From: Chromobacterium piscinae
GTDB taxonomy: Bacteria > Pseudomonadota > Gammaproteobacteria > Burkholderiales > Chromobacteriaceae
Length of the DNA stretch: 33,811 nt
Reading direction: 5' to 3'
Assembly (NCBI RefSeq): GCF_021129175.1
Contig: NZ_JAJOHV010000087.1
Coordinates: 1-33,811 of the forward strand
Position 1 is the stretch's first letter. Every line of letters starts with the position of its first letter. Under the pieces are notes generated by a model. That model saw only the letters and a program-made list of their open reading frames with translations, ran no database searches and was not told where the DNA came from. The position numbers were made by a program, and so were the translations under genes. Positions 7,575-15,339 of the stretch are shown in pieces.

Positions 7575-8318
7575 TCAAACCTGCCGCGACAGCGAGGTGA
7601 TCACCGGCAGCGACTCCTTGCCGTAGCACAGCCGGCTGGGGCGCACCTTCATCCTCACCAGCGACAGCAGCAGGCTGAAGCCGGCCTGGTTGGGATCGAT
7701 CACCGGCACATAGCAGCCCAGCGTCGCCTCCAGCAGCTGCTCCACCCGGCGCGCCACGCCGACGAAGCCGGTGCAGCCAAGCAGAATGGACTGCGCGCCG
7801 TCGCGGCGGACAGCCTCCAGCGCGCACTCGTACACCTTGGGCACCACCACATCCATATTGGACAGTTGGTCCACCGGGCAGTCTATCGCCCGGATCGAGC
7901 TGAACGAATCCTGCAAGCCGTAAGCCTGGACATGGCCATGCTGCATCGCCAGCGTCGACTGCAGCACTGTGACGATGGAGAAGCGCTGGCTGAGCAGCAG
8001 CGCGCTGAACGCCGCCGTCGGAAAGCCGCCGACGATGGGGATGTTCACCGCCTCGCGCGCGGCCTCGACGCCGCACATGTCGAAATCGCTGAGCCAGATG
8101 CCGTCGAAACCCTCGCGTTCCAGCTGCAGCGCCGTCTCCACCACGGCCAGGCCATTGGCCAGCCAGTCGATGCGGTCCTGGATATGGCTGGTGCCGCGCG
8201 GCAGGTTGCGAACCTCCACCTCGACGTCGGCCGGGATCACCGAGCGGATGGATTCCAGTATCGGCTGGTTGAAGGTGTCCACGCCCACCGGCACCAGCAC
8301 GCAGATGCGCAAGCTCAT
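7575..8318 (-). CDS. Aspartate/glutamate/hydantoin racemase family protein
   Basis: A 247-residue member of the Asp/Glu/hydantoin racemase superfamily. The two catalytic cysteines are present: Cys82 in FDMCGVEAAREAV and Cys182 in LLGCTGFVG. These are the acid/base pair used for cofactor-independent racemisation at an alpha carbon. The N-terminus (LRICVLVPVGVDTFNQ) is typical of the hydantoin-racemase branch. The ATG at 8318 overlaps the TGA of the DUF917 gene as TGATG, with GGAGGG six bases upstream, so it is translationally coupled. A hydantoin or thiohydantoin substrate is suggested by the DUF917 neighbour, but no hydantoinase or carbamoylase gene is in the window. Aspartate, glutamate or arylmalonate-type chemistry remain alternatives. 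Confidence 0.9.
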   Translation of the reverse strand: MSLRICVLVPVGVDTFNQPILESIRSVIPADVEVEVRNLPRGTSHIQDRIDWLANGLAVVETALQLEREGFDGIWLSDFDMCGVEAAREAVNIPIVGGFPTAAFSALLLSQRFSIVTVLQSTLAMQHGHVQAYGLQDSFSSIRAIDCPVDQLSNMDVVVPKVYECALEAVRRDGAQSILLGCTGFVGVARRVEQLLEATLGCYVPVIDPNQAGFSLLLSLVRMKVRPSRLCYGKESLPVITSLSRQV

Positions 8319-9497
8319 CACGCGCCCTCCCGGCCAGCGTCCACCGGCGCGTACGGCCCCAGATAGCCAAGCTGCGCCAGTTCGTCGGCGAAACTCTGCA
8401 GGATCAGGCCCTTGCGCAGCGGCGCGGCAGCCGGCAGCGCGATCACCGCCGCCTTGCGGCCGCGCACCGCCGGGTCCAGGCCGTGGTCATCGCCCGACAG
8501 GTCGCCATTGCTGAACACATGCTGGCCATCGCCTTCGACAAAGTAGCTGATGGCGTCCGGCGCGGTCGCCAGCGGATGGGAAACCGCGCTATCCCAAGCC
8601 AGCAGCGATTCGTTCTGGTACAGCACCGTGCAACGGCGCTCGCCGTCCTCCAGGCTCACCTTGCCTAGGTCGAAGCCGCCGGCGGTGGTCACCTCGGACG
8701 ACGCCAGCGTCGCCGGGCCGAACAGCAGCTTGCCCTTGATGTCGAGCTCGCGGCGCAGGAAGTCCAGCATCGCCTCCGCGGTCTTCACCTCGCCGTCCTG
8801 CAGCGCGCGGCCCAGCTTCAGCGCCCGGCTCAGCGTGCCTCGCACCGGCAGCGCGCTGCCCAGTTGCTCCGGCGACATGATCCACATCGCCAGGCCGCCG
8901 AATTGGCCGAACTGCGGATTGGTCAGAATGGGGCGCAGCATCTGCTCCACCACGGTGGAAACGTCTTCCTGCGGCTTGCCGTCCGGCGGCGGCATGCGCA
9001 CGCCCAGCTCCACGCACAAGCCGCTCTCGCCGGCCAGAAAAGCCGGCGTCGGCGGCACGCCTGCAGCGGCGTAGGTCAGCATCGGCAAGGACGGCACCGC
9101 GCGGCCGGCGCCGTCGGCGTCCACCACCGCCAGCCCCAGCTTGGCCGCCACCAGGCTGGCCACCACGAAACCCAGCGCGCCGCTTTCCGGCGCCGCCACG
9201 TAGGCCAGCTTGCGCCCCTGCGACTCCAGCCGTTGCTGCGCGGCGCGCGCGGCCTCCACCGGCCCGTTCGGCCATTGCACCTGGTTGATCGCATCCGGCG
9301 CGCCCATATAGGCCACCATCACGCAGTCGCCGTCGGTCGCCTCGTCCACGTCCACTACTCGCAGCTTGTCCGTCGGATAATAATCGCCGCTGCGGAAATT
9401 CGCCGCCAGATGGCGGGCGGAGATCATCGTCCCGCCGCCGCCGCTGCCGAAAAAGCACGCGCCTTGCAGCAAAGGTTCCAGATCGCGGGATGAAAGT

Positions 9498-9508
<11 letters not shown>
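8318..9508 (-). CDS. DUF917 family protein (S-methyl thiohydantoin desulfurase-like)
   Basis: A cytoplasmic protein of 396 residues matching the DUF917 family, whose Pfam domains are now named for S-methyl thiohydantoin desulfurase. Visible features are the N-terminal GACFFGSGGGGTMISARHL glycine-rich motif, VDVDEATDGDCVMVAYMGAP, and the PSLPMLTYAAAGVPPTPA segment characteristic of the family. The ATG at 9508 was preferred over the longer frame because the family motif ELSSRDLEPLLQGACFFGSG starts right after it and AGGTG lies upstream. It overlaps the end of the regulator gene by 11 bases and the racemase start by one, so all three are probably one coupled unit. The family commonly sits beside hydantoinase genes. 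Here only the racemase accompanies it, so the pathway is incomplete. Confidence 0.9.
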
Positions 9509-11825
<2,317 letters not shown>

Positions 11826-11925
11826 GGCGACCTTGAGCAAAGGACGCGCCAGGCTGGCGCGCCGAATATGGCAAGGCATTATGCCAACGACTTTCAAAAT
11901 GACAAGAAAGATGAGCGGAGATAGC

Positions 11926-11940
11926 GTCCGGATTCATCCA
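11926..11940. promoter_or_regulatory. Second, imperfect upstream activator site
   Basis: Read on the minus strand this is TGGATGAATCCGGAC. It matches the perfect palindrome at 11957-11972 at about eleven of fifteen positions. The centres of the two sites are about 31 bases apart, close to three helical turns, the spacing expected for two enhancer-binding dimers on the same DNA face. It lies roughly 112-126 bases before the predicted transcription start near 12052. Confidence 0.5.
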
Positions 11941-11956
11941 TCAAAAAATCGAAAAA

Positions 11957-11972
11957 TGGACGAATTCGTCCA
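11957..11972. promoter_or_regulatory. Perfect 16-base palindrome, probable enhancer (UAS) of the sigma-54 promoter
   Basis: TGGACGAATTCGTCCA is its own reverse complement. It lies in the gap between the sigma-54 activator gene and the divergent gene at 12112, about 80-95 bases before the predicted transcription start. That is the usual position for an upstream activator sequence bound by a Fis-type helix-turn-helix. The neighbouring activator is the natural candidate to bind it, by inference. Confidence 0.7.
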
Positions 11973-12025
11973 CCAGGAGGGGAAACAAATCGGGACAAGC
12001 GCAATGAATACAATACTTTACAAAC

Positions 12026-12041
12026 TGGCACGCTTGCTGCT
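12026..12041 (+). promoter_or_regulatory. Sigma-54 (-24/-12) promoter
   Basis: TGGCACGCTTGCTGCT matches the RpoN consensus TGGCACG-N4-TTGCW with only the first T of TTGC changed. The invariant GG and GC are separated by exactly ten bases, the required spacing. It points toward the gene at 12112 and predicts a transcript start near 12052 with a leader of about 60 bases. Two palindromic activator sites lie upstream at suitable distances. Confidence 0.85.
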
Positions 12042-12111
12042 GTAGACAGCCGATGCCTCTGCAGCGGCCACAGCCGCCCGGCAGCGAAAAAAACACACCC
12101 GGACATTGGGC

Positions 12112-12813
12112 ATGAACGCTCGCTACACCATCAATATTCTCAACAACAGCCGACACGCTCAGGACTTCTTCCTGTTTCAGGAACCCGCCCGCTACACCGG
12201 CGCGGACAGCGCCGTCTACAGCAACAGCCTTTACCACCGGACGCTGCCGCCGATCTCCGAAACCGGCTCCATCCTGATTCTGGAGCTGCTGTCTTCCAGC
12301 TTCGCCGCCGCGCAGGCCCGCCTTGATCCGGCGCCGCGCGCCGGCCTTCCCTCCGGCCAGGCCATGTCCTGCCAGCCGGTGCGCGCCTCGCGCTCAGGCT
12401 TGCCCTCCCCCAACGCGGTCACCATGAGCCTGGACCCCGAACCGGAACTGAGCGCCCCCCGCCACCACCCCGACGTGGACGAGGAAGCGTTCCGCATCAG
12501 CATTCCCCACTACGACGCAGGACGGCGGCCCTGCAATGTCGGCCAGGCGGTGCGCACCGGCGACGGCCGCATGGTGCTGTCCAGTTTCATCGACGCCCAG
12601 CCGGACAGTCACATCGATTGCGCGCCGCTGCCGCGCTTCTATGCCGGCGTCGGCCGCCGCCACGCCGGCACCGTCATCGACTTCGACCACAGCCGGGACG
12701 GCGCGGCGCTCTGCGACGCCAGCGAAGGCCACACCACCTTCAACCTGATCTACGATCATCGCGGCGACTGGATCGTCGAGGCCGTCAAGGGCCGGCCCGC
12801 CTGGCTAGGCTGA
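12112..12813 (+). CDS. Uncharacterised protein under sigma-54 control
   Basis: A 233-residue protein that I do not recognise. It starts MNARYTINILNNSRHAQDFFLFQEP, a beta-strand-like opening with an Asn-Asn-Ser turn. A Pro/Ser/Ala-rich central stretch (about 68-120) follows, then a C-terminal part with Asp/His/Arg-rich segments (DFDHSRDGAALCDASEGHTTFNLIYDHRGDW, here split in sense at the Cys). There is no signal peptide, membrane segment or known catalytic motif. The ATG at 12112 was preferred over an in-frame TTG at 12106; neither has a strong ribosome-binding site. The -24/-12 promoter at 12026 and the divergent sigma-54 activator indicate tightly switched expression. It ends four bases before the convergent beta-lactamase gene. 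Real-gene status rests on the promoter and codon structure. Confidence 0.8.
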   Translation: MNARYTINILNNSRHAQDFFLFQEPARYTGADSAVYSNSLYHRTLPPISETGSILILELLSSSFAAAQARLDPAPRAGLPSGQAMSCQPVRASRSGLPSPNAVTMSLDPEPELSAPRHHPDVDEEAFRISIPHYDAGRRPCNVGQAVRTGDGRMVLSSFIDAQPDSHIDCAPLPRFYAGVGRRHAGTVIDFDHSRDGAALCDASEGHTTFNLIYDHRGDWIVEAVKGRPAWLG

Positions 12814-12817
12814 ACTC

Positions 12818-13603
<786 letters not shown>

Positions 13604-13776: not shown

Positions 13777-15339
13777 ATGACCGCCGACGCCATCCATTTC
13801 GAACTCACCCCGCCCTACCGCCATGCCGGCAAACCCGCACGTTTCCAATCACTGTGGCTGCTGGTCCGGCTTTACTACGCCGCGGCCCACGAAGACGGCA
13901 TGGTGGCGGTCGCCGCGCTGCGCCAGCGCTTTCCGGCCAGCCGGACGCCGCGCATGCTGGTTTCCCGCGCCTTCGCCGACTTCGCCGCCTGGGGCGTGGA
14001 GGCCGGCTGGGGCGCGCCTCGGCGCGAAACCGCCTCCTTGCTCAATCCGGATGGGCGCAGCCGCGGCCCTTTCTGGCTGGCCTCTGACGACATGGCCCGG
14101 CTGGAATTTCTGGCGGACGGACTGCCGGCAGACCGCCGGCAGCTGGAACAATTCCTCGGCCTGGAGCCGGCCGCGGCGGAAGCTCCCGATTCCATTTCGC
14201 AACTGGAGGCGCTGACCCGCGGCCTGGATTACTGGAGCCAGCTCACCCAGGCGATCCGCGACGAGCGCGACGGCATGGGCAGGGTGGCGGGCCCGCAGGT
14301 GGCGGCCTCCTTCCATGCCGCCAGCCTGGCCGCGCACAACGATTTCCAGCAGGCGCTGGCCCTGACCAAGGAAAGCCTGGCCTGGCGCCGCGGCGCGCAA
14401 TTCGACGACAGCCGGCTAGCGCTGAAAAAACTGGGGCAGGTGCTGGACGGCCGCCGCTTCGAAACCGCCCAGCCCACCTTCTCCGCCATGGCCTGCATCG
14501 CCCGCGCCTGGGACCACTACGCGCGCGGCGAGCCAGACGGCGCCGAGGCCTGCCTCGCGCAACTGCGCAATCCGGGAGAGCTGCAGCCGGTCTATCGCTA
14601 CAACCCCCGCGTGCGCTTCGAATGCCTGAACCTGGGCGCGTTGTTGCACAAGCAGGCCGCCATCGCAGGACAAGCGCCGGAACGCGCCGAAGCGGCGCTG
14701 CGGGACCTGGCCGGCGCGCTGGAAGCCGCCTACGAGGCGGACTCCATCGACGCCGCCCAGCACGTGGCGGCCAATCTTGGCTGGTGCCTGTGGCTGTTCT
14801 GGAAGCAGGCGCTGGTCGATCCGCAACGCGCGCTGCCGGTCACGGACATGCAACGGCTGGCGATACGCTGGCTGGGGTTGTCGGAATGGATTTGCGATCG
14901 CTTCGGCGTCGGCAACGGCTCGGCGTGGAACGTCGTCTTCCTGCTGCGCATCGCCCGCGGCGATTGCCCGCGGACCAAGTGCCCGGCGCTGGCGGGCTTC
15001 CAGGCCGCGCGGCCGTTCCCGCTGCAGGAGATGCGCCGCGCGCTGGCCCTGTCGCCCTGCCCGTTTTCCGCCGCCAAGGGCTACCGCAGCTGGACCGCCG
15101 TCGCCGAGCTGACGCTGGACGAGCACGACCAGGGCCGGCTGCCGCTGACGCCGCTGCAACTGGCCAATCTGCTGCTGGAAACGCTGTGGTTCCAGGCCTG
15201 GGAAGGCGGCGTCAGCCGGCAGGCCTGTGCCAGCGCGTTGCGCCTGAAACAGCTGCTGCCGCAACTGCGGCGCGGCGAGCGCAGCTTCTTCCGCGACGAG
15301 CTGGCTTTCCTGCCGCAGGAGTTGCTGGAGCTGGCCTGA
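13777..15339 (+). CDS. Uncharacterised 520-residue helical-repeat protein
   Basis: I do not recognise a family. The N-terminal 70 residues (FQSLWLLVRLYYAAAHEDGMVAVAALRQRF, then RTPRMLVSRAFADFAAWG) look like a helical or winged-helix module. From about 140 onward the protein consists of Ala/Leu-rich helices resembling degenerate TPRs (AEACLAQLRN, AEAALRDLAGALEAAYEADS). It ends in a Leu-rich segment LAFLPQELLELA. There is no signal peptide or membrane segment, so it should be cytoplasmic. An N-terminal DNA-binding part plus repeats would suit a signal-responsive regulator, but that is speculation. It is divergent from the beta-lactamase gene with a 185-base gap. A GTAAC-N4-GTAAC direct repeat lies just before its start. 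Product size, uniform codon use and the downstream terminator support a real gene. Confidence 0.85.
   Translation: MTADAIHFELTPPYRHAGKPARFQSLWLLVRLYYAAAHEDGMVAVAALRQRFPASRTPRMLVSRAFADFAAWGVEAGWGAPRRETASLLNPDGRSRGPFWLASDDMARLEFLADGLPADRRQLEQFLGLEPAAAEAPDSISQLEALTRGLDYWSQLTQAIRDERDGMGRVAGPQVAASFHAASLAAHNDFQQALALTKESLAWRRGAQFDDSRLALKKLGQVLDGRRFETAQPTFSAMACIARAWDHYARGEPDGAEACLAQLRNPGELQPVYRYNPRVRFECLNLGALLHKQAAIAGQAPERAEAALRDLAGALEAAYEADSIDAAQHVAANLGWCLWLFWKQALVDPQRALPVTDMQRLAIRWLGLSEWICDRFGVGNGSAWNVVFLLRIARGDCPRTKCPALAGFQAARPFPLQEMRRALALSPCPFSAAKGYRSWTAVAELTLDEHDQGRLPLTPLQLANLLLETLWFQAWEGGVSRQACASALRLKQLLPQLRRGERSFFRDELAFLPQELLELA

Follow-up and report, generated by a model that had tools for sequence, protein, structure and literature searches.

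Organization of the locus

The stretch of Chromobacterium piscinae DNA analysed here (33,811 nt, hereafter the window) contains a pair of divergent genes with a set of promoter elements in the gap between them. On the minus strand lies the gene of a sigma-54 activator (EBP; 9498-11897), identified by its Pfam domains. Behind it, in an apparent operon, follow a DUF917/S-Me-THD-like gene (8318-9508) and a gene of the Asp/Glu/hydantoin racemase family (7575-8321, Pfam). The ATG of the DUF917 gene at 9508 overlaps the activator stop, and its mechanically called frame begins upstream of this ATG. A probable sigma-70 promoter of the activator was found at 11878-11905 on the minus strand (TTGTCA-16-CATAAT, with a TG ahead of the second hexamer). 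On the plus strand, the target gene (12112-12813) encodes a protein of 233 aa, which is probably related to RhiA as judged by profile comparison. Between the two genes we found, in this order, a degenerate and a perfect copy of a palindrome, which are the predicted distal (11925-11940) and proximal (11957-11972) activator sites, and a sigma-54 -24/-12 box (12026-12041), with a conserved block (11992-12025) lying between the proximal site and the box.

The target gene is flanked by the EBP on one side and by a beta-lactamase gene on the other. The latter (12818-13603, minus strand) encodes a subclass B2 metallo-beta-lactamase (411.7 bits, cut-off 240) and is convergent with the target; its match to the CVI family is close but stays under the cut-off of that family (509.7 vs 575). 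This synteny is retained in three Chromobacterium relatives, which also keep, near the circuit, a gene (13777-15339, plus strand in the window) whose 520-aa product shows no more than a weak TPR match.

The activator carries its TPR region behind the DNA-binding domain

The 799-aa activator frame contains an AAA+ domain with its lid at residues 46-292 (Sigma54_activat, PF00158, E 1.9e-64 in Pfam) and a Fis-type HTH at 313-349 (PF02954, E 8.1e-7, 29.1 bits against a cut-off of 22). The C-terminal part, about 440 residues with TPR matches, is placed after the HTH. The sequences GPTGAGKE, GAFTGA and LFLDE are present, and we take them to be the Walker motifs and the GAFTGA loop of the AAA+ sigma-54 interaction domain. 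Most groups of EBPs have an N-terminal regulatory domain, which is missing in the PspF type. Here, Pfam detected no N-terminal sensor domain, and the AAA+ domain starts about 21 residues from the likely start of the protein. Named EBP equivalogs in NCBIfam (RtcR, NtrC, NorR, NifA, PrpR and others) all stayed below their cut-offs among the best 25 of 33 matches, RtcR being the top one with 299.3 bits against 650. Six further EBP-like matches were found in the genome of the window.

The ATG at 11825 (residue 25) is the more likely start, rather than the TTG at 11897, since the sigma-70-type promoter is positioned at 11905-11878. This promoter matches 10 of 12 positions (one found against 0.2 expected), and its second hexamer is kept throughout a four-row Chromobacterium alignment. 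The N-termini of related activators align near residue 25-30.

DUF917 and racemase genes stand behind the activator in the window and in the three Chromobacterium relatives, as well as in 23 of 41 Burkholderiaceae loci, while they are missing there in the other 18. The DUF917 gene overlaps the activator end in both the window and Paraburkholderia phymatum and, by coordinates, in nine more Burkholderiaceae loci whose alignments reach the last residue. The 8318-9508 protein matched the domain families PF06032 and PF20906, and as a thiohydantoin or S-methyl thiohydantoin desulfurase it scored 67.9 and 65 bits against NCBIfam cut-offs of 440 and 450. The initial annotation, made from the letters alone, had proposed a divergent activator of the cognate class within a self-contained circuit. 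The class holds, as this is an AAA+ EBP with a Fis-type HTH whose orthologues carry the same sites; the circuit is not strictly self-contained, since the activator belongs to an apparent operon with the DUF917 and racemase genes.

Promoter box and palindromic sites

The sigma-54 consensus is TGGCACG-N4-TTGCW with invariant GG and GC. The box TGGCACGCTTGCTGCT agrees with it in 11 of 12 scored positions and has the correct GG/GC spacing; the deviation is a C instead of a T at position 12. With the relaxed pattern TGGCACGN5TGCW the window gives two matches where 0.13 are expected, and 2 of 100 shuffled sequences reached as many; the second match (2319-2334) falls within a coding frame. All 16 columns of the box are invariant in the four-way Chromobacterium alignment, and an rpoN gene was found in the genome of the window (439.6 bits, cut-off 277.35). 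The -24/-12 box read from the sequence in the initial annotation is confirmed as a predicted promoter. Judging from the box position, transcription of the 12112 gene would be expected to start near 12052. Another sigma-54-like box on the minus strand (11851-11836, 11/12, also present in genome G027) was rejected because genomes G018 and G028 lack it.

The 16-base palindrome TGGACGAATTCGTCCA is exact, as had been claimed, and is the sole copy in the window at up to 2 mismatches. An imperfect upstream copy had been claimed as well. It is present at the expected phase, with the best 16-mer lying 32 bp, or three helical turns, upstream of the perfect palindrome, but it is weak: only 8 of 12 half-site positions agree, and the window background for 8 or more is 0.84% per position.

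At up to 2 mismatches, the palindrome alone occurs at 24 places in the genome of the window (40 strand hits against 6 for the reversed control), and the genome may thus hold more sites that lack this promoter geometry. The composite promoter geometry exists at only one of the 24 places, and the composite pattern gave no match at the other palindrome-like places. We examined 16 of these 23 other places with about 1.5 kb of flanks; six of the 16 carry a sigma-54 box of at least 10, one scoring 12 and the others exactly 10. The box of 12, located on contig C52 990 bp from its palindrome, was assigned to another EBP circuit and not to this regulon. In this second sigma-54 circuit of the same genome (L043, G000:C52, 1-1500), the EBP is truncated by the end of the contig; the 12/12 box lies at 1000 and is accompanied by two TGTCGCC palindromes and by a small gene, presumably of the BON type.

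Conservation within Chromobacterium

The activator was found at 84% identity or more in 4 of 61 family genomes, and the target had a match in 6, two of which are distant (41% and 25%). The genomes with the activator and those with a close target homologue are the same four, all of them among the 19 Chromobacterium genomes, and in each the two genes stand next to each other in divergent orientation. These four, and no others of the 61 genomes, have the composite pattern of palindrome, spacing and box; each has it once, and there were no control hits. In the three relatives the target frame is retained at 74-97% identity.

In the four-way alignment, invariant columns make up 13/16 of the palindrome, 8/15 of the distal copy and 31/34 of the block ahead of the box. 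The spacer between the palindrome and this block has 4/19 and the other spacer 6/16, while the leader has 11/31 in its first part and 19/23 in its last 23 bases. Across the four genomes the proximal palindrome scores 12, 12, 12 and 11 of 12, and the distal copy 8, 8, 6 and 7. Where the gene pair is conserved the proximal palindrome is kept and so passes the conservation test proposed in the initial annotation, but the distal copy is, by these scores, only half conserved.

Orthologous activators and their predicted sites in Burkholderiaceae

The TPR part of the activator was used for searches outside the genus. It matched six Paraburkholderia/Caballeronia replicons (47-49%) and, at 21%, a single Parabacteroides record. 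At E 1e-20, 59 of the 144 genomes searched in a Paraburkholderia-like genus had it, two copies being broken. Among 399 genomes drawn across the order there were two matches, including the window's own genome, and of 299 genomes searched phylum-wide 18 others matched weakly (23-39% identity, mostly longer frames). EBP matches with in-frame stops were seen in G1158:C10 and G1204:C2, and the composite site is still present in G1204. The Burkholderiaceae orthologues share about 50% identity with the window's EBP, and the end of the HTH (LGVGRK..ERRL) is common to both groups.

We compared 41 Burkholderiaceae loci, namely 37 of the 59 EBP loci and four plasmid records; L066 is identical to L116, and L064 almost identical to L102. 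Each of the 41 carries a sigma-54 box of 10-12 of 12, preceded by at least two palindrome copies with at least 9 of 12. In 40 of them the sites are offset by -99 to -103 and -67 to -71 from the box, ranges into which the window (-101 and -69) also falls; the exception is L121, with offsets of -111 and -80. These loci and the three Chromobacterium loci, 44 in total, were scanned with a strict rule that demands a box of at least 10 and two sites of at least 9 each. Every one of its 40 hits in 1.09 million strand-bases fell on the predicted box, and 5.47 million strand-bases of shuffled sequence gave no hit. L121 and the three Chromobacterium relatives fail this rule, the latter because their distal site is too weak.

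A stricter composite pattern was found in 32 of the 144 Paraburkholderia-like genomes, once in each. Comparison of the lists by eye places all 32 within the 59 EBP-bearing genomes and none in the other 85, and in 31 the composite site is no more than 2.5 kb from the EBP match; in G1111 the distance is about 9 kb. The pattern misses 27 of the 59 EBP-bearing genomes, and since it is strict, weaker second sites may remain. Because the geometry is shared at orthologous loci and the strict composite site is restricted to genomes with the EBP, the activator very probably belongs to these sites and this box. In the part of the P. phymatum RpoN paper available to us (PMC5979394), this locus is not identified.

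The genes behind the promoter differ between lineages

The targets at the Burkholderiaceae loci were set by position, via tblastn of five reference ORFs from the same loci. The gene assigned behind the promoter encodes a 62-aa protein in 15 of the 41 loci, a protein of about 105 aa in 11, an AraC-like protein in 8, DUF1842/1843 proteins in 5 and a 603-aa protein in one, and one locus has no assignment. The 62-aa and 105-aa proteins are related (E 8e-7). The window's target had no match in the 41 loci at E 1e-6. The 603-aa protein, encoded downstream of 7852 at L121 (G1091), where the EBP is oriented plus, has no Pfam match and an uncertain start. DUF1842/1843 genes of C. subtsugae were reported to be raised with quorum sensing, occurring there singly as well as within a radical-SAM cluster, according to the part of that study available to us (PMC12114271).

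The target class tracks the EBP tree, with 6 changes for 7 labels, the unassigned class included, which is the minimum; the shuffled mean was 26.0. The 105-aa, AraC, DUF1842 and RhiA-like classes each occupy one side of a branch, and the 62-aa class shows two changes. Counting the two related small proteins as one class, the tree suggests at least four target exchanges, with no direction set.

In 14 of the 15 loci of the 62-aa class the ORF begins 546-757 nt after the box. Downstream of the box, 21 of the 41 Burkholderiaceae leaders, with unrelated targets, contain GAGAGGGCCGTGCTGTTGT at up to 3 mismatches (L064-L066, L098, L099, L101, L102, L104, L105, L107-L112, L116, L120, L125, L127, L129 and L130), while none of 269 control windows had fewer than 5. 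A further sequence, CTTCCnnAGAGAAG, is mostly found 50-60 nt beyond it. In 19 aligned leaders (without L066 and L116), GAGAGGGCCGTGCTGTTGT holds an in-register GTG...TAG frame consisting mostly of leucine codons. The fold of the Paraburkholderia leader RNA had no covariation support in these 19, and the element may be either an RNA element or a mini-ORF.

The target is probably a distant relative of RhiA

The target had been annotated as uncharacterised. This stands insofar as searches of Pfam and NCBIfam at E up to 0.1 gave no family, but a distant relation to RhiA is probable. We found no match in PHROGs or phage records. The gene is 97% identical in C. vaccinii MWU205, and relatives with 24-40% identity are encoded in 100 plasmid records: 44 of Rhizobium, 29 of Serratia, 21 of Phaeobacter, 3 of Agrobacterium and one each of Azotobacter, Parasedimentitalea and Pararhizobium. 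Serratia plasmids of this kind can carry insect toxin genes. A class-wide search added one genome among 369. Two family members lie close together in three of five records compared (L021, L022 and L023; not L014 and L025), and in genome G039 (L019, 5349-7231) a family member and a RhiA homologue (E 1e-14 in comparison with RhiA) are divergently arranged.

A profile of 13 target-family members matched a profile of RhiA and the G039 homologue, the latter built from these two sequences only, with E 2.4e-6 and a probability of 88.9%, and the alignment is collinear over nearly the whole length. The pairwise comparison with RhiA was not significant (BLASTP E 0.10). The target is probably a distant, collinear relative of Rhizobium RhiA. 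AlphaFold2, run with the target and one 97% relative, gave no usable structure (pLDDT 27.7). Seven PDB chains of eIF3b appeared in a PDB profile search at E 0.019-0.66 and were taken as chance matches.

In the parts of the literature available to us, RhiA of R. leguminosarum is presented as a small cytoplasmic protein with high expression and no assigned function, and rhiABCD is flanked by rhiI and rhiR (PMC2275737, PMC13133039); the available part of PMC4949626 mentions rhi only in citing the rhi paper. The rhiABC gene order with a LuxR-type regulator was not encountered at the target locus. Other family members lie near Crp/Fnr, response-regulator or LuxR/AHL-synthase genes, and none of eight upstream regions of such members has a sigma-54 box of at least 10. 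As far as tested, sigma-54 control of this family seems to be particular to Chromobacterium.

Proposed mechanism and alternative explanations

The activator, the two sites, the box and the target in all likelihood form a dedicated sigma-54 switch, as the initial annotation had proposed; conservation links activator, sites and promoter in two groups. The activator would be made from its own sigma-70 promoter and released by a signal. As no sensor domain precedes its AAA+ domain, sensing probably falls to the C-terminal TPR region. The DUF917 and racemase genes that follow the activator gene give a hint that the signal may be a small amide or an amino-acid-derived compound. The released activator would assemble on the two palindromes, centred near -87 and -119, loop to the sigma-54 polymerase at the box and open the promoter in an RpoN-dependent manner, so that the RhiA-like protein would be made. 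Elsewhere the geometry is kept but faces other genes, which suggests a one-promoter switch whose target varies by lineage. Whether this extends to an activator lineage with its sensor region behind the DNA-binding domain, one fixed-geometry promoter per genome and a target exchanged at least four times we consider an even bet.

There is a slim chance that the palindromes serve a different regulator, be it a second EBP or a repressor acting on the activator gene, and that the adjacent activator works elsewhere. The genome does have the six other EBP-like matches, the distal copy is located near the activator's own sigma-70 promoter, and palindrome-like sequences are commoner in the genome than matches to the reversed control. 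However, the same palindromes stand beside orthologues of this activator at every one of the 41 loci, whatever gene comes next, and none of the 85 Paraburkholderia-like genomes that lack the EBP carries the strict composite site.

It is very improbable that the palindrome is an intrinsic terminator of the minus strand, with a stem followed by a T run. A terminator scan lists 11974-11955 (minus strand) with a T-rich tail and the T run is also retained in G027 and G028, yet G018 keeps the palindrome without it, and in Burkholderiaceae the element is doubled at a fixed distance from the sigma-54 box. In some Chromobacterium the palindrome could possibly have a double role as site and terminator. 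We give an equally small probability to an RNA, either a leader or a small RNA, as the main product of the promoter, with the protein being secondary. This would suit the many Paraburkholderia loci in which a leader of 546-757 nt with conserved blocks precedes the first assigned ORF, but the Chromobacterium leader is only about 60 nt long with the gene directly after it, the target frame is retained in the three relatives at the identities given above, and there was no Rfam match. A dedicated switch for a protein-coding target is the reading we prefer.

Comparison with known systems

With these results a guess from the sequence becomes a testable circuit of one activator and one promoter with a defined predicted binding site. 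RhiA-like proteins gain a regulatory handle outside rhizobia, and the loci offer a natural series in which regulator and promoter are fixed and the target changes. If true, the switch lineage outlives its targets, be they small helical, AraC-like, DUF1842/1843, 603-aa or RhiA-like proteins.

Activators of the NtrC/NifA/PspF class combine an AAA+ domain with the GAFTGA loop, a Fis-type HTH, paired palindromes in helical phase and a -24/-12 box. The core, HTH, paired upstream palindromes and box are the same here, but the activator has no N-terminal receiver, GAF or PAS domain and carries a long TPR region after the HTH. The TPR region bears a weak likeness to MalT-type regulators (Pfam TPR_MalT, E 6e-6, 26 bits against a cut-off of 45), whose ATPase and DNA-binding domains are unlike those of the activator. 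Among the matches listed in our literature searches on TPR-bearing EBPs and on DUF917 with sigma-54, the AAA+/HTH/TPR layout is undescribed, and none of those listed for RhiA families describes this circuit.

The Paraburkholderia/Caballeronia proteins of 764-765 aa annotated as 'sigma-54 dependent transcriptional regulator' (BEI72849.1, WP_213234072.1) are orthologous activators with 53% identity. Their loci have the sites, spacing and box of the window, but the targets differ, and the sites and box follow the activator or its operon, whereas in the window they are placed between divergent genes. RhiA of R. leguminosarum resembles the target also in its size of about 230 aa, but the target has no rhiB/rhiC neighbours and is adjoined by a sigma-54 EBP instead of a LuxR-type regulator. 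An EBP with paired sites and a sigma-54 promoter is already a known kind of system; as far as we searched, what is new is the layout of the EBP, a RhiA-like protein as target, and a promoter geometry that stays fixed while targets are exchanged.
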